A DNA stretch of 64,000 nucleotides, taken from positions 310,001-374,000 of the forward strand of contig NZ_CP108002.1 in the NCBI RefSeq assembly GCF_041435055.1. The letters are read 5' to 3'. Position numbers and translations under genes: made by a program. Shown piece by piece: positions 9,952 through 61,225 of this stretch (its first letter is position 1; every line of letters begins with the position of its first letter). The notes under the pieces were generated by a model, which was given only the letters and a program-made list of their open reading frames with translations, made no database searches and had not been told where the DNA came from. Origin of the DNA: Streptomyces sp. NBC_00341. GTDB taxonomy: Bacteria; Actinomycetota; Actinomycetes; Streptomycetales; Streptomycetaceae.

Positions 9952-11247
9952 ATGACGGCTCTGCTGGACGCGGCGGAACGGATGGACCGCGAGGAGCTGC
10001 GGGCGCTCCAGCTGGAACGGCTGCGGGCGACACTGCTGCACGCGTACACCCACGTCGGCCACTACAGGGCCGCGTTCGACCGGGCGGGACTGCACCCCGA
10101 CGACTGCCGCTCGCTCGCCGATCTCGCCCGGTTCCCGTTCACCACCAAGGCGGACCTGCGGGACAACTATCCGTTCGGGATGTTCGCGGTGCCGGAGGAG
10201 CGGGTGCGCCGGATCCACGCCTCCAGCGGCACGACGGGCCGCCCGACCGTCGTCGGCTACACCCAGGGGGATCTGGACACCTGGGCGGACGTGGTCGCCC
10301 GCTCGATCCGGGCGGCAGGCGGCCGGCCGGGGCAGAAGGTCCATATCGCCTACGGGTACGGGCTGTTCACCGGCGGACTCGGCGCGCACTACGGGGCGGA
10401 GCGGCTCGGCTGCACGGTCATTCCCGCCTCCGGCGGCATGACGGCCCGCCAGGTCCAGCTGATCCAGGATTTCCGGCCCGAGATCATCATGGTGACGCCG
10501 TCGTACATGCTGACGCTCCTGGACGAGTTCGAGCGTCAGGGCGTCGATCCGCGGTCGACCTCACTGAAGGTGGGGATCTTCGGGGCGGAGCCGTGGACGC
10601 AGGAGATGCGGCGCGAGATCGAGGAGCGGTTCGCGATCGACGCGGTCGACATCTACGGGCTGTCCGAGGTGATGGGGCCGGGCGTCGCCCAGGAGTGCGT
10701 GGAGACGAAGGACGGGCTGCACATCTGGGAGGACCACTTCTATCCGGAGGTGGTCGACCCGTTCACCGGCGAGGTGCTGCCCGAGGGGGCGGAGGGCGAG
10801 CTGGTGTTCACCTCGCTCACCAAGGAAGCCATGCCGGTGATCCGTTACCGGACCCGGGACCTGACCCGGCTGCTGCCGGGGACGGCACGGGTCTTCCGGC
10901 GTATGGAGAAGGTCACCGGGCGCAGCGACGACCTGGTGATCCTGCGCGGGGTGAACCTCTTCCCGACGCAGATCGAGGAGATCGTACTCCGTACCCCGGC
11001 GGTCTCGCCGCACTTCCAGCTGCGGCTGACCCGCGAGGGCCGGCTGGACGTGCTGACGGTACGCGCGGAGGCCAGGGCCGGGGCGACGCCCGAGCAGCGC
11101 GCTGCCGCCGCCGCGTCGGTCGCGGCGGCCGTCAAGGACGGGATCGGGGTCTCGGTCGGGGTGGAGATCCTCGATCCGGAGACGCTGGAGAGGTCGGTCG
11201 GCAAGTTCAGGAGGATCGTGGACGAGCGGGACAGGCCGGGCAGTTGA
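9952..11247 (+). CDS. paaK: Phenylacetate-CoA ligase family enzyme
   Basis: A 431-residue adenylate-forming ligase that would convert phenylacetate (or a related aryl acid), ATP and CoA to the aryl-CoA. The P-loop-like AMP motif is HASSGTTGRPTVVGYT (about residue 92); later core motifs are FGAEPWTQEMR, YGLSEVMGPG and the hinge GRSDDLVILRGVNLFP. All are characteristic of PaaK rather than long-chain FadD. ATG at 9952 is preferred because GAAGAGGGAG precedes it. It stands alone without other paa genes here, so it may serve catabolism elsewhere or a biosynthetic use. Confidence 0.92.
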   Translation: MTALLDAAERMDREELRALQLERLRATLLHAYTHVGHYRAAFDRAGLHPDDCRSLADLARFPFTTKADLRDNYPFGMFAVPEERVRRIHASSGTTGRPTVVGYTQGDLDTWADVVARSIRAAGGRPGQKVHIAYGYGLFTGGLGAHYGAERLGCTVIPASGGMTARQVQLIQDFRPEIIMVTPSYMLTLLDEFERQGVDPRSTSLKVGIFGAEPWTQEMRREIEERFAIDAVDIYGLSEVMGPGVAQECVETKDGLHIWEDHFYPEVVDPFTGEVLPEGAEGELVFTSLTKEAMPVIRYRTRDLTRLLPGTARVFRRMEKVTGRSDDLVILRGVNLFPTQIEEIVLRTPAVSPHFQLRLTREGRLDVLTVRAEARAGATPEQRAAAAASVAAAVKDGIGVSVGVEILDPETLERSVGKFRRIVDERDRPGS

Positions 11248-49123: not shown

Positions 49124-50036
49124 AGTGTGTCTTCAAAGGTCAGATCCATAACAGGATTGAGGCGATGGTGACGGTGGCCTGGAACGACTCGTGGGTCTTG
49201 TCGTAGCGGGTGGCCAGGCCGCGCCATTGTTTGAGCCGGTTGAAGCAGCGCTCGACGACGTTGCGGAGTCGGTAGACCTCCCTGTTGAAACGCGGTGGTC
49301 GGCCGCCACGTGAGCCTCGGCGTAGGCGGCCGCTGGCCTGGTCGATGCGTTCGGGAATCGTGTGGCGGATGCCGCGCTTTCGCAGGTAGGCGCGGATCTT
49401 ACGGGAGCTGTAGCCCTTGTCCGCGATGACGTGGTCGGGCCGGGTGCGTGGCCGGCCTGGACCGATGCGGGGAACGCAGATGGCGTCCAGGACCTCCTCG
49501 AAGCGAGTGCAGTCGTTGACGTTCCCGCCGGTCAGAACGAAGGCGAGTGGGCGGCCGTGTCCGTCGCAGACCAGGTGGAGCTTGGTGCTCAGTCCGCCTC
49601 GGGATCTGCCGAGGGCGTGATCACCCGCTTCGTCCCCCTCGGTGACCCCTTTTTGCCGCCGGCGGCGTGCTGATGGGCCCGCACGATCGTGGAATCGACC
49701 GACACCAGCCAGTCGATGTCCCCGGCCGCATCTTTCTCCGCCTGCAGAGCCCGCAGCATGCGAGAGAACGTGCCATCCAGCGCCCACCTGCGGAAACGCG
49801 TGTAGAGCGTCTGCCAGGAGCCGTAGCGTTCCGGCACATCCCGCCAGGCCGACCCCGTACGCAACTTCCACACAATCCCGTTCAGCACCACGCGGTCATC
49901 CGACCGCGGCCGCCCCGCCGTCCCCGAACTCGGCAACAACCGCGACAGGACAGCCCACTCAGCATCCGACAGCTCATGACGACGCACCACAACCGACATG
50001 ATCCCTCAACACCTAAAACAGCTTTGAAGACACGGC
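49124..50036. mobile_element. IS5-family insertion sequence, 913 bp, CTAG target duplication
   Basis: Terminal repeats share GTGTCTTCAAAG, and CTAG flanks both ends (49120-49123 and 50037-50040). It interrupts a small secreted-protein gene. The clean empty-site reconstruction shows that the insertion is recent. Confidence 0.88.
49140..49999 (-). CDS. IS5-family transposase, two frames joined by -1 shift
   Basis: Frame 1 (49999 down to 49589) gives the N-terminal domain with LSDAEWAVLSRLLPSSG and the first Asp in LVSVDSTIVRAHQHAAGG. Frame 2 (to 49140) gives GGLSTKLHLVCDGHGRPLAF, the second Asp in VIADKGYSSRKIR and the Glu in RNVVERCFNRLKQWR. They join at the AAAAAGGGG run (49646-49654, minus strand), where A_AAG_GGG is in the zero frame: a canonical -1 slip site. 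The product would be a full DDE transposase. Confidence 0.87.
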
Positions 50037-52111: not shown

Positions 52112-52575
52112 GCCGCAAAGTACATCGACTTGGACCGGGCGGCGTCGGCCGAGGGATACCGGTGGCGGCCACCGTGGCGGCTCGGTGAGCCGATCCTCGT
52201 GGAGGACCCGGACTGGGAGGGCGCCACACTCAACGGGCGGCGGCGCCCCTGGGCTCCGTGCGGCCGGGTACCTACAAGCACCTGGCCGAGGAGTTCGAAC
52301 GGCGCCGCACCGAGCTCCAGGCGGCCGGCGAGATCACCGACCCACGCGACGCCCAGATCGAACGCCTCAAAGCCGAGGTCTCCGAGTTGAAGAGGAGGGT
52401 CACTGCCCGCGACGAGAAGATCGTCGACCTGACCGGCTTCAAGACGTTGGCCATCAGCAGCCTCGCCGCCCAGCACGACGAGATCGAGCGGCTGCGCCGG
52501 CGGCTGGCTCAGCACGGAAACGTACGAGCGCTCCCAGTTGCTGGGGCAGGTCAGCAGCCGGAGGGGCATGGATGA
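52112..52575 (+). pseudogene. C-terminal coiled-coil fragment joined to the IS701 break
   Basis: From 52258 the frame reads RPGTYKHLAEEFERRRTEL, then a clear coiled coil (QIERLKAEVSELKRRVTA) and AAQHDEIERLRRRLAQHG, ending at 52575. It looks like the end of a DUF6262/TnpC-like helper protein of a tyrosine-recombinase transposon; the N-terminal half is absent. Bases 52112-52257 are junction sequence without a recognisable product. Confidence 0.42.
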
Positions 52576-52606: not shown

Positions 52607-53480
52607 TCAAGGCGGCCCTGCGCGCAGGGCCGTCGCCTCTACTGCTGTGGAGCGCGGTGCCCTGGCCGTGAGAGCGACGAGGGCTGCGAAGGCGGAAATG
52701 AGTGCCAGCAGTCCGAAAAGACGGGGGTAGCCACCGAGCGGCACGGCCAGGGCAGCGCCGACGAACGGGGCGAGGGCGGGGGCGGCCGGTTGCCGGGGCG
52801 GCCAGGAGTCCGGAGAGGCGGCCGTAGTGGGTGGTGCCCCACCGGTCGGTGATGGCGGTGGCTTGCAGCAGGGTGAGGTTACCGCGGACCATCCCGGCCG
52901 CGACGGACAGGACGACCAGCAGGGCGTACGGACCAGGGACGAGCGCGAGCGCGGCTGTGGTGAGTCCGCCGAGTGCGATCAGCGCGACGGTACGGGCCGT
53001 CACGCCGGTGCGGCGGGCGAGCGTCGCGTAGAGGGTGCGGCCGAGGGTCTGTCCGGCGCCGCCGAGACCGAGGGCCCACGCGGCCATGGTGGTCGTGAAG
53101 CCGCGTTCGAGCAGGAGCGGGACGAGAGCGACGACGACGGCGTACACGGTGAACGCGGAGAGCGTCAGGGCCGCGGCCAGCAACCAGAACTGCCGGCTGT
53201 GCGCCACCTGATCCGCCCTGCCGACGGCGTGGGCGGGTGCCGGAGGCGCCTTCGGCCACGGTGCGTTCAGGGCGAGCCCATGCGCGGGCACGGTCACCAC
53301 GGCCAGCACCAAGGCGAGAACGGCGTATGTCGCCCGCCAGGACAGGTGATCGGCGAGCGCCGCGGTGAGAGGTGCGAAGAGCGTGGAAGCGAGGCCCCCG
53401 GCAAGGGTGACGATGGTGAGGGCACGGACGTGGTCGGGGGCCCACCAGCGGGTGATCGCGACGAAGGCGGGCTGGTATCT
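52607..53480 (-). pseudogene. MFS transporter remnant
   Basis: Membrane segments of a major-facilitator protein are readable (RALTIVTLAGGLASTLFA, FWLLAAALTLSAFTVYAVVV, ALVPGPYALLVVLSVAAG). The N-terminal third is missing at 53480, and a one-base frameshift near 52790 separates the last two helices (APFVGAALAVPLGGYP, LLALISAFAALVALTA). It is opposite in direction to the adjacent lasso cluster, so it is not an intact exporter for it. Confidence 0.7.
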
Positions 53481-53666
53481 CGCCGGTGGGGGAGTTCCGC
53501 AGTCTCATTCGGTGACGTTATGTCAACTGTTCCGAAGTGTGGAGGCGGTGGTTTCCCTCGTTGGGATGGTCCTCCGTGGGGGGTGTGGCGTGGCGCGTTC
53601 GCTTCGTGAGTCACTGTGGGTGTCGGGTGGATCGACTGCCCGCGACGACCGGGAAGGTGACTTTCT

Positions 53667-53810
53667 GTGATCAATGCGTTGGAGTTCGAGGCTGAGGACG
53701 TGTACGAGGCTCCGCTGCTGGCGGAGGTCGGCGACTTCGCCAACCTCACCCAGGGTGGCGGCTCCTTCTACCCTGAAGGTACCGGGGATTACTACTCACA
53801 ATTGGGCTGA
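53667..53810 (+). CDS. Lasso peptide precursor
   Basis: 47 residues from GTG with GAAGG 9 nt upstream. The leader contains the lasso recognition motif YxxPxLx3Gx5T as YEAPLLAEVGDFANLT, with the invariant threonine at -2. The predicted core after Gln29 is GGGSFYPEGTGDYYSQLG (18 residues). Gly1 and Glu8 would form the macrolactam ring (8-membered in residues), leaving a tail of ten that includes Tyr13-Tyr14 as possible plug residues. No cysteines, so a class II lasso. Followed by cyclase, RRE and peptidase genes. I do not recognise this core as a described peptide. Confidence 0.9.
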   Translation: MINALEFEAEDVYEAPLLAEVGDFANLTQGGGSFYPEGTGDYYSQLG

Positions 53811-53842
53811 TCGGCCTGCGGTTGAAGGCTGTTTGATGCGCG

Positions 53843-53881
53843 GGTGCCGGCGCGTGGCCGTCTACGGTGCGGGCCGGCACC
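53843..53881 (+). terminator. Hairpin between precursor and processing genes
   Basis: GGTGCCGGC pairs with GCCGGCACC across a 21-nt loop, 33 nt after the precursor stop. A leaky terminator here would let the precursor mRNA exceed that of the enzymes. Confidence 0.5.
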
Positions 53882-53991
53882 TGCCGCTTCTTGGGGGGTC
53901 CTTTCTCGGGGGCGCCGGGCGTGGTGTTGCTTGACGGGCGGCGGTGTGTCGGGGGGCAGCAGGGGTGTCTACGGGAGGCGGGGTTGAGGGC

Positions 53992-55857
53992 GTGGTGGAC
54001 GGTGTGTCGGCGGGTTGGTTCGTGGTGGTGCCGGACCGGGAGCTGCCGTCTGGTGTGATGGCGCGGCTGCGGGAGCGGGCGAGCGGGGTGCTGTCGTACC
54101 GATCGGGGCGGCCGTGGCTGCTGGGATCCTGGCGGGCGGACGGGATGGTCGCGGTGTCGGCGGGCGGGCGGATGCTGGCCGTGGTGGGGACGTCCTCGAC
54201 CACTGCTGCGGATCTGGCGGCCCGGCTGAAGCGAGCGGGTTCGATCGCCGGCCTGGAGCAGGCGATGGACGGAGTGCACGGCAGTTTCCATGTGGCCGCG
54301 TTCTTGGACGGGCGCGGTTACGTGCGCGGCAGTGCCGCCGGGGCCCACCGCCTGTACCGGGCGGTGGTGGGTGGGGTGACGGTGTGTGCGGACCGGGCGA
54401 CCACGCTGGCCTGGCTCACCGGCGCGGAGCCGGACCCCGTCCAACTCGCGGCGCGCCTGGCCGCCCCGAACCTGCCCTACCCGCTGGCCGGTGCGGCGAT
54501 GTGGAGCGGCGTGGACGCCGTCCCACCGGGCGAGGCGCTGCACTGGGAGCCCGACGGAGCCTGCCGTACCGCCGTCTGGTGGCAGCCACCGCCTGCCGAA
54601 CTCCCCCTCGCCGAGGCCGCAGCACGCCTGCGCGGAGCCCTGCGCGAGGCGGTGGCGCTGAGGGTGCGCCCCGGACAGATGCTGGGAGCCGACTTGTCCG
54701 GCGGCATGGACTCAACCTCCCTGTGCTTCCTGGCCGCCGAGGCCGGAGCATCGCTGATCACCTCCACACTGCACTGGGACACACCCGGCAATCAGGACCA
54801 CCACTACGCCGCCCACGCGGCCGAGCGCCTGCCCCGGGTCGAAGCCCTGGTCTTCCCCTCGGCCGAACTCCCCCCTTTGTTCACCGGCCTCGACGAACGC
54901 CGCGAACCCGGGCAGGAGCCCTCGGCGGCGCTGCGCGACCTGGCCCGCCGCCAGCACACAGCGCGCGAGATGCGCACCCGGGGAGCAGTGCTGCGCCTGT
55001 CGGGCCACGGCGGCGACCACATGGTGGTGCCCCCCGCCGCCTACGTCCACGCCCTTCTGCGCCGCAGCCCGCACACCGCGCTGCGGCACATGGCGGGTCA
55101 CAAGGCCCGCTCACGGTGGCCGCTCGGCGCCACTGCGGGCATGCTGCTCCGTACGCAGTCCTACCCGTCCTGGCTGTCCGCGGCCGGCAGCCGGCTACGG
55201 GAACCGGCGGGGAGCGAGCCCCGGACCTGGGGGGAACGGCCGGCTCTTCCCCCATGGGCGAGCGGGCAGGCCGTCGACCAGGTCGCCGGGCTGCTGTGTC
55301 ACACCGCCGAGCAGGCCCAGCCGCTGGACACCGATGTCGGGCGCCACGCCTGGATTCACCAGATGCGCGAAGCCGGACGGATCGCGGGGCTGCTCCGCGC
55401 GGCCGGAACGTCGATGGACCTGCCGGTGGACAGCCCGTTCTGCGACGATGCGGTGATGAACGCCTGCCTGACCGTCCGGCCCGAGGACGCGGGCAGTCCC
55501 CGCTCCTACAAGCCGCTGCTGGCCGCGGCCATGGACGGCCTGATGCCCCCCTACCTGCTGGAGCGCACCACCAAGGACCATTGCGGCCCTGACTGGTACC
55601 GCGGCCTCAAGACTCACCGCCGTCAGCTCGCCGACTGGGCCGACACCTCCCACCTGGTCGCCGCCGGCCTCGCCGACGAGGACAAGCTGCGGCGTGTTCT
55701 GCTCAACCCCGGTATGCACCGCGGCGGTGCACCCGGGCTGGAGAACACCCTCGGCGTCGAGGTTTGGCTGCGCGACCTGTCAGCACATCCCGTCCCCGCC
55801 CACCTCACCGACCGACACCCCCACGAAGAGGACACCGTTGACACAGTTGCGCTCTGA
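53992..55857 (+). CDS. Lasso cyclase (asparagine-synthetase-like, C protein)
   Basis: About 621 residues. An N-terminal glutaminase-like domain (without the catalytic Cys2) runs to about 200; the ATP-pyrophosphatase motif is SGGMDSTSL at 236, followed by LSGHGGDHMVVPP. It activates the Glu8 side chain of the core as an acyl-adenylate and closes the ring onto Gly1. Start uncertain: GTG 53992 or 53995 fits protein-like sequence (GWFVVVPDRELP); ATG 53944 is a longer option. Its stop codon overlaps the RRE gene start region. Confidence 0.93.
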   Translation: MVDGVSAGWFVVVPDRELPSGVMARLRERASGVLSYRSGRPWLLGSWRADGMVAVSAGGRMLAVVGTSSTTAADLAARLKRAGSIAGLEQAMDGVHGSFHVAAFLDGRGYVRGSAAGAHRLYRAVVGGVTVCADRATTLAWLTGAEPDPVQLAARLAAPNLPYPLAGAAMWSGVDAVPPGEALHWEPDGACRTAVWWQPPPAELPLAEAAARLRGALREAVALRVRPGQMLGADLSGGMDSTSLCFLAAEAGASLITSTLHWDTPGNQDHHYAAHAAERLPRVEALVFPSAELPPLFTGLDERREPGQEPSAALRDLARRQHTAREMRTRGAVLRLSGHGGDHMVVPPAAYVHALLRRSPHTALRHMAGHKARSRWPLGATAGMLLRTQSYPSWLSAAGSRLREPAGSEPRTWGERPALPPWASGQAVDQVAGLLCHTAEQAQPLDTDVGRHAWIHQMREAGRIAGLLRAAGTSMDLPVDSPFCDDAVMNACLTVRPEDAGSPRSYKPLLAAAMDGLMPPYLLERTTKDHCGPDWYRGLKTHRRQLADWADTSHLVAAGLADEDKLRRVLLNPGMHRGGAPGLENTLGVEVWLRDLSAHPVPAHLTDRHPHEEDTVDTVAL

Positions 55858-56098
55858 CGTCGCCTGCTGCCCGACTGAGGACGGCACGGTCCTGCTCGAC
55901 GAACGCGACGGCCGCTACTGGCAGCTCAACGCCACTGGCACCACCGTCCTGCAAGCCCTCCTGGACGGCGCCACCCCCCACCAGGTCGCGGAGCGGCTCG
56001 CCTCCACCCGCCCCGTCACCAGCGAACAGGCCGCCGCCGATATCACCGCCCTCATCGACCATCTCTCCCGCGCCGGGCTGATCGAGGACGCCCGATGA
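55838..56098 (+). CDS. Lasso RiPP recognition element (PqqD-like, B1 protein)
   Basis: 86 residues, a stand-alone RRE that binds the leader peptide and delivers it to the peptidase. Sequence TQLRSDVACC, TVLLDERDGRYWQLNATGTTVL and HLSRAGLIED follow the PqqD fold. TTG start is supported by GAAGAGG 7 nt upstream and by the standard opening; it begins inside the cyclase 3' end (20-nt overlap) and overlaps the next gene by ATGA. Confidence 0.93.
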   Translation: MTQLRSDVACCPTEDGTVLLDERDGRYWQLNATGTTVLQALLDGATPHQVAERLASTRPVTSEQAAADITALIDHLSRAGLIEDAR

Positions 56099-56529
56099 GC
56101 CAGGTTCTCGACACGACCGGAATCCGGCCCCCGCTACACCGCCGGCTCGCCGCCTACCCGGCCGTGGCCGCAGCCCGGCTGCTCGCCCACCTCCCGCCCA
56201 AGCGCCTGCAAGCCGTCCTGCGCGCCGCCCGGCACGGCGCTGAGGCCGCCGACTACCCCACCGCCCTCCAAGCCCGACAGGACGTCACGGCCGTCAGCAC
56301 CCTGTGCTCCGGCCGCTACTGCCTCCAACGCTCCCTGGCCACCGCCCTGTTGTGCCGCCTGAACGGCACCTGGCCCACCTGGTGCACCGGCGTACGCACC
56401 CCGCCCTTCGCCGCCCACGCCTGGGTCGAAGCCGACGGCCGACGCGTCGGCGAACCCGAAGATGCCGCTACCTACCGGACCATGCTCACCGTTCCCCCGC
56501 GCACCCGCACACCCGCGGCACCTCGATAG
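56095..56529 (+). CDS. Lasso leader peptidase (transglutaminase-like, B2 protein)
   Basis: 144 residues of the Transglut_core3 family. Catalytic Cys76 in GRYCLQRSLATALLC, His108 in FAAHAWVEADG and the nearby acidic residue form the cysteine-protease triad that removes the leader after Gln29. ATG overlaps the RRE stop by 4 nt. No ABC exporter (D) gene follows, so the cluster is A-C-B1-B2 only. Confidence 0.93.
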   Translation: MSQVLDTTGIRPPLHRRLAAYPAVAAARLLAHLPPKRLQAVLRAARHGAEAADYPTALQARQDVTAVSTLCSGRYCLQRSLATALLCRLNGTWPTWCTGVRTPPFAAHAWVEADGRRVGEPEDAATYRTMLTVPPRTRTPAAPR

Positions 56530-57343: not shown

Positions 57344-57483
57344 CATCCCCGCCGCCGCACACCCCAGCCGCGCACTCCCGCCGGCCGGGGGGCGGCCACC
57401 CGCCCCGCCGGTCGGCAGGATGCCGGCGACCCCGACGGCGAGCGCCGTCGCCGTCGGGTGTTCGCCCCACACCGCCCACGGAC

Positions 57484-57573
57484 GGGACCAGTCCGGCGTC
57501 CTCGCGGTCCCGGAGACCACGACGGTGGTGGTCTCCGGGACCAGTCCGGCGTCCTCGCGGTCCCGGAGACCAC
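57484..57573. repeat. 53-bp-spaced direct repeat with internal hairpin
   Basis: A 37-bp sequence beginning GGGACCAGTCCGGCGTCCTC occurs at 57484 and again at 57537. Between 57506 and 57542 the 15-bp arms GGTCCCGGAGACCAC and GTGGTCTCCGGGACC pair around a 7-nt loop. The rest of 57344-57839 shows no gene. Confidence 0.8.
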
Positions 57574-57839
57574 CACCGTCGTGGGGCCGGACCCCCTGCG
57601 GTCGGCCACGGAGGCCCCAAGGCCCGTCTCGTCGCTGGGCGTAGCACAGGTGGCGAGGGGTTCGGCCACGCGGTGGTCCGGGCGACTGCACCGCGGTCAA
57701 CATCGCAGGGCCGCCACGCCACCGCCGGAGGGACGGTGCCGGGCGTCCGGACCGCCGGCCGATACAAGGGACAGGTCATCCGGGACACCGGTGTCCGGCG
57801 TTCCGGCCACCCGTCTGTGTTTCGAAGGAACGTGATCCC

Positions 57840-58668: not shown

Positions 58669-59103
58669 TCAGAGAACGACCAGCGTGAACGGCTGGTCCT
58701 TGCGGCCGCCGTTCTGGATGGTTACCACCAGGATCGACTTGGCGCTGTTCCCGCACTCGGGCCGCTTGGAACGCGTCAGCTCGAGGATGGGGTTCCGAGA
58801 GGTGCCCAGGTTCGGGGTCGCCTGACTCACCCCGGTGGAGATGTCGAAACCGGAGGCGGAGATCTTCACGCAGTACTCGCCCACCGCGACGCGCTGGACC
58901 GACGCCACGCCCTTGCCCCGGAGCAGCTTGCCCGACGCGTTGACGACCGCTGCGGCCCGCGCGTACGGCGCCACCGCGACCGGCGCGGCAGCCCGTGCGG
59001 CGGACGCCGTGTCCGGCAGCGAGACCGCGACCGCACCCGCCGCGAGAGCGCACGCCGCACCCGCCGCCACCGCAACGACACGCGGTTTTTTGAAGACCCT
59101 CAT
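58669..59103 (-). CDS. Secreted protein of unknown function
   Basis: 144 residues from ATG 59103 with GGAGG 6 nt upstream. Signal peptide MRVFKKPRVVAVAAGAACAL with an Ala-rich cleavage region, then a beta-rich mature domain with two cysteines (GEYCVKISASGFDIST, KRPECGNSAKSILVV) that could form a disulphide, ending QPFTLVVL. Family not recognised; the length and two-cysteine beta layout would suit a small inhibitor or binding protein, which is speculation. Confidence 0.74.
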   Translation of the reverse strand: MRVFKKPRVVAVAAGAACALAAGAVAVSLPDTASAARAAAPVAVAPYARAAAVVNASGKLLRGKGVASVQRVAVGEYCVKISASGFDISTGVSQATPNLGTSRNPILELTRSKRPECGNSAKSILVVTIQNGGRKDQPFTLVVL

Positions 59104-59547
59104 GGGGAACCTCCTGTAAAAATCCAGCACTTGACTACACACAGTGCCGAACAGCCCTCAGGGAAAACCAGGGCATATAGGTATGTTCACCCGAACGAGA
59201 GAGACCCTCCGTCAGCGACCTCGCCACCGCGGACCGCCATCAGGAGCGGGTGTCCCGGGCGGCGAGGGAAGGGCCAATCGGGGTGCACCCGCGCCCCACG
59301 GTCACCTCGAGGGAGTCGCAATTGGCGGGGACGCCCGCGCACTGGCTCGGGTCGCCGGAGCTCGGATGAAAATTCGAGCACGACTTGGCCAGCTCGTGGT
59401 GGGGGCCATGCTGGCTGGCGTAGGCGCTTTCCCGGCTGTGGGCAGGAGGCAGCGCCCGAAGAAAGCAGAGGCTCGGCGTGTCGTGCAAGTCAGACATGAC
59501 CAAACTGACTTGGATGAGAGTTATCTGCCCCTATGTGAGGAGTTTCG
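59104..59547. other. Divergent intergenic region
   Basis: Lies between two secreted-protein genes pointing away from each other and must contain both promoters. No convincing gene; long frames here have biased arginine/proline composition. Confidence 0.45.
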
Positions 59548-60113: not shown

Positions 60114-61225
60114 GTGCCACCCCGTGCAGCGGGTGGTGTTCCTGGCCTTGGGCATATCGGGGTGCTGCGCCGGGATCCTCTGGGATTCTTGCGGTCGCTT
60201 CCTGCTCAGGGTGATGTGGTGGAGGTGGGGCTGGGCCCAGTGAAGACGTTCGTGGTCTGTGACCCTGGGCTGGTGCGGGCGTTGTTGCTAGATGACCGGA
60301 CGTTCGACAAGGGCGGCCGGTTCTTCGACAAGGGCCGGTAGGTCGTCGGTGACGGTCTCGCCACCTGTGTCCACGACCGGCACCGGCGTCAGCGGCGCCT
60401 CCTGCAACCCGTCTTCCACCCAGGCCGGCTGCCCGGCTACGCCCGGGTCATGACGGAGCAGGCACAGCTGGTGGCCGACTCTTGGAGCGATGGCTTCGTC
60501 ATCGACGTTGACGCGCAGATGAGGAAGCTGACCACCGCAACGGTGGTCAAGACGCTCTTCACCCCCGCGGCAGGGGCCGCCGCGGAGACACTGACCGCGG
60601 TGACGCAGGATCTCCTTCGAGGCATCGACCGGCGCCTGCGCAACCCGATCAGGGCACTGGAAAGGCTTCCCACGCCTGCCAACCGGCGTTTTGAGCGGGC
60701 GAAGCCCGGCACCCCGGCCTCCAGCAGCGGCTGCACGAAGCCTGCGCCGCCGTCACCGGCGGGCGCCGTTCGCCTCAGTTCGAGGATCCTCCCCGACTCG
60801 GCTTCATCGAGCGTTTCCTGACCGATACGCAGCGCCTGTACCCGCCGGTCTGGGTCGTGACCCGCAAGGCCCGGACCGCCGCCACCCTGGGCCCGTACAC
60901 AGTGCCGGAGGGCACCACCCTCATCTACAGCCCCTACCTGATCCACACCAGAGCCGACCTCTACCCGAGTCCCGAGGTGTTCGATCCCGACCGGTGGGCC
61001 GACCGGACGGTGCGGCCGTCCGCGGACAGCGCCTACCTCGCCTTCGGCGCCGGGCCCCGCAAATGCATCGGGGACCGCTTCGCCATGGCGGAAATGACCC
61101 TGGCCCTGGCCCAGATCACACAGCAGTGGACGCTGGAACCGCTCGACTCGGCGCCTGTGCAGCCGCGCGCACGCGTCTCCCTCACTCCCCACGGCCTGCG
61201 GCTCCGCGTACGCACCCGCACCTGA
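60114..61225 (+). pseudogene. Cytochrome P450 pseudogene
   Basis: The N-terminus (GVPGLGHIGVLRRDPLGFLR) has a GTG with GGAAGG upstream. A TAG interrupts at 60339, a frame change occurs near 60720, and about 80 residues including the oxygen-binding I-helix AGxxT are deleted before HPGLQQRLHEACAAV. The K-helix ExxR reads DTQR, so the glutamate is lost too. The haem-ligand loop FGAGPRKCIGDRFAMAEM survives. Clearly non-functional. Confidence 0.85.

Follow-up and report, generated by a model that had tools for sequence, protein, structure and literature searches.

A lasso peptide operon is located in a stretch of 64,000 nucleotides of Streptomyces sp. NBC_00341, here called the window, which corresponds to 310-374 kb of a contig of 8,775,322 bases in a genome of 9,063,152 bases. 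The operon consists of lasA (precursor), lasC (cyclase), lasB1 (leader-binding protein) and lasB2 (leader peptidase). Its open reading frames (ORFs) and the elements around them are as follows:

53667-56529, + strand: lasso operon with the order A-C-B1-B2, all four frames open
53667-53810, + strand: lasA, precursor ORF of 47 amino acids with a GTG start (NF033521)
53992-55857, + strand: lasC, macrolactam synthetase of the Asn-synthetase family, 621 amino acids (PF00733), with a putative GTG start in an ORF open from 53944
55838-56098, + strand: lasB1, PqqD-like leader-binding (RRE) protein (NF033530), with a putative TTG start
56095-56529, + strand: lasB2, transglutaminase-like leader peptidase with Cys76-His108-Glu120 (NF033537)
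53624-53630 with 53636-53642, + strand: stem of a conserved hairpin in the 5' untranslated region (UTR), supported by covariation and followed by a presumed ribosome-binding site
53835-53889, + strand: strong hairpin in the gap between lasA and lasC (GGGTGCCGGC...GCCGGCACC), recognized by folding
53478-53666, + strand: region upstream of the operon, with a rearrangement breakpoint that cuts an MFS gene at its left edge (53477/53478)

The lasA precursor is composed of a leader of 29 amino acids, MINALEFEAEDVYEAPLLAEVGDFANLTQ, and a core of 18 residues, GGGSFYPEGTGDYYSQLG. The first-pass annotation of this DNA had claimed the leader motif YxxPxLx3Gx5T, a Thr at position -2, and the ring residues Gly1 and Glu8; all are present in the ORF, which matches NCBIfam NF033521 with 33.3 bits (cut-off 19). 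LasA thus combines the L3-type leader with Gly1 and an Asp or Glu at positions 7-9, the combination that defines a lasso precursor. LasC exceeds the cut-off of PF00733 with 109.4 bits. Its ATP loop reads SGGMDSTS and its identity to ten relatives is 37-67%; an alignment of eleven C proteins shows no variation in the SGG-x-DSTS loop or at many positions towards the C-terminus. LasB1 matches NF033530 with 104 bits (cut-off 70), and the solved TfuB1 (6jx3) aligns to residues 3-81 of its 86 residues with an E of 2.2e-14.

LasB2 matches NF033537 with 116.8 bits (cut-off 33), and a sequence search of the PDB returned no B2 match at E <= 0.01. Cys76, His108 and Glu120 are invariant in all 12 aligned B2 proteins, the window's own among them. 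In the proteobacterial McjB, the last catalytic position is an Asp. The first-pass statement that the C, B1 and B2 genes are complete with their catalytic residues holds for the open frames and the expected domains, with the correction that the third catalytic residue of B2 is Glu120 and not Asp. Glu was also seen by eye at the third catalytic position of B2 in the chaxapeptin operon; since chaxapeptin is made by its strain and by heterologous hosts, according to excerpts of PMC6856326, a Glu in the triad goes with a working enzyme. Ribosome-binding-like sequences were recognized by eye at the operon, and a promoter and terminator scan found nothing. Four different lasso parts adjoin one another, and their arrangement is therefore not due to chance. 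With the precursor, B1 and B2 over curated cut-offs and C in the Asn-synthetase family, the initial interpretation as a lasso cluster is well supported. To judge by its genes, the locus is very likely a lasso peptide operon of the actinobacterial kind, complete, probably functional and, apart from its core, ordinary.

During maturation, B1 would bind the conserved leader (YEAPLLAEVG...T), B2 would cut after Gln29, and C would activate the side chain of Glu8 with ATP and join it to the amine of Gly1. The tail, G9-G18, would be trapped in the ring, with Tyr13 and Tyr14 as the likely plugs. The expected product is a cysteine-free (class II) lasso peptide of 18 residues, probably secreted by a general route; for GGGSFYPEGTGDYYSQLG with a Gly1-Glu8 ring, the computed mass M is 1835.76.

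The core had been called unfamiliar in the first-pass annotation. This stands for the whole 18-mer, of which no exact copy, and so no already published identical core, was found in 5.39 million open-licence papers, the only literature searched. It does not stand for the ring, which is similar in the relatives with the cores GGGIFYPEGSGSRRDW and GVSFGFIPEGTGSWYWL. A search for precursor homologues against 5.8 billion proteins gave five matches at E <= 0.01, lasA itself included, and related cores are GGNLGNFPEGGGTWWLA, GNTGVHPEAGATWYVWS, GVSFGFIPEGTGSWYWL (protein P0004) and GNTGDKVEDGATWYQWS. In Streptomyces iconiensis (locus L021), the precursor core GGGIFYPEGSGSRRDW has a ring equal to that of the window except at residue 4, and a different tail. 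Several relatives likewise have a Pro just before the ring acid, and several carry P-E-G there. As far as these sequences go, the core is a new sequence inside a family in which similar rings already occur. In a survey of 392 sampled genomes of the genus, the window's included, the B2 gene was detected at E <= 1e-6 in 179 and the precursor at E <= 1e-3 in 17; lasso operons are therefore common, but the window's subfamily is not. With this operon, the predicted lasso peptides gain a further member whose mass is defined and whose sequence has no match in the literature searched.

The precursors of relatives also resemble one another upstream of the gene, and this likeness prompted the folding of 26 upstream stretches. 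The hairpin alignment comprises 18 upstream regions, including that of the window; L024, L026, L036, L096 and L098-L101, plus L107 (27 stretches overall), were left out before the count as belonging to more distant precursors. The alignment folds into a stem of 7 pairs about 25 nucleotides ahead of the start codon, and 95.1% of the stem cells are paired, compared with 46-58% when the stem is slid by 1-3 columns. The covariation score is 0.53 (0.11-0.17 when slid). Cells changed on both sides number 18, against a shuffle mean of 6.8, and 0 of 500 shuffles reached this value; 5 of the 7 stem pairs are changed on both sides, a value reached by 79 of 500 shuffles. The alignment rows come from perhaps six lineages and also served to derive the structure itself, and the window alone, folded to minimum energy, gives a longer hairpin whose register differs.

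At the window, the hairpin model matches 53596-53669 with 49.3 bits, this being a training row. A model search of 834,943 bases from 68 sources returned, besides the 18 training sites, a single additional one in genome G058 (24.2 bits, E 0.006), which ends on the start codon of a lasso precursor and lies in two overlapping loci; all other matches had an E of at least 0.48. Across the complete genome of the window, the best site other than that of lasA had an E of 0.33 (150 of 13,172 first-look candidates scored). A known RNA family was ruled out for the upstream element, with 0 matches at E <= 1 for 53400-54100 among 4227 Rfam families, and no 5'-UTR hairpin of lasso operons was found in the literature searched. 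In a single fold, the chaxapeptin precursor gave no hairpin of this kind.

The position just before the start codon would also suit a DNA operator for a regulator, and operators are often inverted repeats. An operator would conserve its letters; the letters of the arms change here while pairing is kept, G-U pairs included, which argues against this explanation and makes it unlikely. The covarying leader hairpin is the preferred reading, as a lead rather than proof. The second hairpin, in the gap between lasA and lasC, has a z-score of only -2.09 for the window and -0.54 for L028, and similar GGGTGCCGG-type stems occur after many, though not every one, of the precursors folded from relatives. 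Bracketing the precursor message, the two hairpins may protect this small, abundant transcript and would probably raise its abundance above that of the enzymes' messages. The leader hairpin would then be a direct handle on the balance of substrate and enzymes.

The surroundings of the operon have been rearranged. The MFS gene to the left lacks its N-terminal part, and the MFS alignments of L125-L127 (blastn, all three) and most other MFS matches listed end at window position 53477, 190 bp ahead of the precursor. In L125, L126 and L127, the MFS frames run on for 130, 198 and 159 residues, respectively, as measured back to the stop codon that lies upstream. By these alignments, 53477/53478 is the left breakpoint of a rearrangement that placed the operon here. 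Only this breakpoint could be placed, and no relative with both flanks (an empty site) was present among the matches listed, with 2 candidates per genome scored in 120 genomes, a scope in which such a site may have been overlooked.

The first-pass annotation had spoken of dead transposons beside the cluster, which is correct in part. The frame of a DDE_5 transposase runs to 52390 and the matches of relatives mostly end near 52120, so that this gene is probably without its end; the IS5-type transposase at 49140-49999 is split over two overlapping frames, but this could also reflect programmed frameshifting. The zone of small secreted proteins, likewise noted earlier, was seen as a set of such frames downstream of the operon. 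One of them, at 58672-59142 on the minus strand, is a small secreted-like protein without a Pfam match, with a weak relative (33% over 42 residues) at L021:6694-6969 on the minus strand, near the orphan precursors of S. iconiensis. A tandem repeat with a period of 53, 1.9 copies and 93% matches was found at 57483-57584. A cytochrome P450 at 60131-61225 is present as pieces in different frames, and its haem-binding end (60857-61225) is still recognizable. It was rejected as a tailoring enzyme because its frame is in pieces, it lies 3.6 kb from the operon, and unrelated ORFs are found between. None of the flanking transposase, MFS, secreted-protein and P450 frames looks like part of the operon.

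Several observations weigh against a functional operon of this type. LasC reaches 247.7 bits with NF033561, its best NCBIfam model, under the cut-off of 300; this is a cyclase model named for another lasso branch, and NF033535 is likewise sub-threshold. The operon might be silent because it adjoins a breakpoint and broken genes. With the MFS gene cut at 53477, the P450 in pieces and pieces of transposons nearby, the operon could be regarded as a remnant, silent or in decay, on an arm of the chromosome that has been rearranged. This reading seems quite improbable, given that all four frames are open, that the catalytic residues, the ring residues and the upstream hairpin have been kept, and that the ribosome-binding-like sequences are in place.

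In some relatives, members of this lasso subfamily are organized differently. In two of eleven loci (L021 and L023), the precursors lie in 20 kb of DNA that contains neither C nor B1 nor B2. The leader, C, B1 and B2 were mapped in 24 genomes, namely 22 of the 392 with a related precursor, S. iconiensis and S. varsoviensis; the sample is non-random, the 22 having been chosen for the related precursor and the other two for the orphan precursors seen there. Scoring of C covered at most 53 candidates per genome at E <= 1e-40. Among 77 leader matches over the cut-off, 44 had C, B1 and B2 within 10 kb, 17 had none, 9 had C only, 3 had C and B1, and 4 had other sets. When S. iconiensis and S. varsoviensis are set aside, 57 leaders remain (39 with all three genes, 8 with none, 6 with C only, and 4 with other sets), and the 8 orphans are split four and four between genome G036, which has an identical pair among them, and G186. 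Some cases with C only or with C and B1 reach contig ends (G181, contig C36, and, by its coordinates, G213, contig C19).

With our own profiles, the stretches of 12.8-20 kb around the orphans yielded no C, B1 or B2 except a weak C match (E 6.8e-4) 9 kb from the orphan in L110; L096 starts 2.8 kb before its orphan, at the first base of the contig. One B2 and four orphans were found in S. varsoviensis, and five orphans in S. iconiensis. Orphans of these two species, at L021:7486-7629 and 9989-10129, L023:9980-11510 and L104:9957-10094, have intact leaders, ring acids and the hairpin, with no C, B1 or B2 found nearby. In G186 (L095-L102), there are seven leaders, three C genes, one B1 and one B2, the latter two on different contigs; on this map, G186 is a fully scattered lasso pathway. 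Leader mapping found no orphan precursor in the window's own genome.

Each of the 17 orphan stretches was read. Sixteen were parsed automatically and gave 15 distinct cores, every one with an acidic residue at position 8 or 9 (Asp or Glu), compared with a mean of 4.6 and a maximum of 11 in 20,000 shuffles; the parser required Gly1, which is therefore no evidence. In the seventeenth (L099), Glu9 was seen by eye. A hairpin at E <= 1 precedes six of the 17 orphans, four from S. varsoviensis and two from S. iconiensis, all of which are rows of the alignment.

Conservation of the ring acid in orphan cores suggests that maturases act in trans. It is possible, and we propose tentatively, that the window operon represents, in compact form, a lasso subfamily in which elsewhere scattered precursors, alone or with their own cyclase and hairpin-bearing in the window's subclade, are processed in trans by one or a few distant B1/B2 pairs, as the conserved leader would permit, new peptides arising by copying of a gene of about 150 bp. 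Three points tell against this proposal: the other 11 of the 17 orphans have no hairpin match at E <= 1, the leader of the S. varsoviensis precursor beside the maturase is degenerate, and the genome sample behind the orphan counts is biased. The orphans may instead be dead relics, silent on processing in trans, and this too must be taken as a serious possibility. None of the three enzyme genes lies within 10 kb of them, most have no hairpin match, C frames in the vicinity of other precursors are broken in two cases (G392 C51 and G082), and in S. varsoviensis the precursor that adjoins a maturase (L103, contig C3) itself has a degenerate leader (DVRETPLPVETGEF, by eye), whereas the distant orphans are intact. 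Dead genes, on the other hand, are not expected to keep the ring acid as all 15 distinct parsed cores do, and six orphans carry the covarying hairpin.

The dispersed organization of some relatives is thus regarded as a lead rather than proof. No report of orphan or dispersed lasso precursors was found in the open-licence literature, and none in the main text of a 2026 review (PMC13352647). Passages in this literature on genes lying elsewhere in a genome deal with a transporter, with the deiminase of citrulassin and with immunity genes of lanthipeptides, and the term "stand-alone precursor", where it occurs with lasso peptides, concerns MNIO enzymes; unclustered proteases are known for lanthipeptides, according to excerpts of PMC8960859. 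If processing in trans were true, cluster-based genome mining would miss such precursors, and one enzyme set could provide several lasso peptides per strain.

The absence of an exporter, stated in the first-pass annotation, was confirmed for the ABC type: no ORF of at least 120 codons with ABC-ATPase Walker A and B motifs exists in the 64-kb window. The same scan detected the ABC gene directly after B2 in the Nonomuraea locus L031, used as a positive control, and found no such frame in loci L022, L025-L029, L036, L037 and L103, nor in the chaxapeptin locus (L135). In L026, an EamA-like pump was seen by eye nearby on the opposite strand. Excerpts of the literature describe RES-701 operons without transporter genes (PMC7280977) and the presence of chaxapeptin in the supernatants of S. 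albus cultures and of cultures of S. coelicolor, a host devoid of lasso clusters (PMC6856326). The missing exporter is not odd, because the chaxapeptin operon has none and yet its product is secreted. Neither the ring proline nor the missing exporter sets the window's core or operon apart as exceptional.

Among known systems, chaxapeptin (Lp3) of S. leeuwenhoekii plasmid pSLE2, as presented in excerpts of PMC6856326, shares with the window the order A-C-B1-B2 on one strand and the absence of an exporter, as well as the leader YxxPxLxxxG and the Glu in the B2 triad. It differs in its C protein (36.5% identical), its core (GFGSKPLDSFGLNFF) and its gap of 7 nucleotides between A and C. A plasmid-borne close relative of lasC was sought and rejected, all 41 of 41 records being under 60% identity. 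The precursors of S. iconiensis (L021, L022), S. varsoviensis (L023, L103), Streptomyces sp. NPDC056004 (P0002) and P0004 have a leader like that of the window and mostly the P-E-G ring motif, and their tails differ; the four loci are rows of the hairpin alignment, as is the window, and P0002 and P0004 were compared by protein only.

The precursor and cyclase models of the albusnodin family match the window's genes below their cut-offs (NF033525, 20.7 vs 30 bits; NF033561, 247.7 vs 300 bits), and no acetyltransferase was recognized on visual inspection of the ORFs listed for 47-62 kb, where not all ORFs were domain-scanned. A second lasso cluster in the same genome (L034:9030-12358; contig C1 of G000, at 5.285 Mb) belongs to this family and passes both cut-offs; it contains a precursor with the core GQGQGSSEDKRRAYN, a cyclase with 577 bits to NF033561, a B2 and a GNAT acetyltransferase. 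Microcin J25, a proteobacterial lasso peptide with the exporter McjD, has an 8-residue ring closed between Gly1 and Glu8, with a Gly-Gly start and Pro7. The ring predicted for the window is alike in all of these respects and the leaders are unrelated; the likeness of the two rings probably represents convergence.

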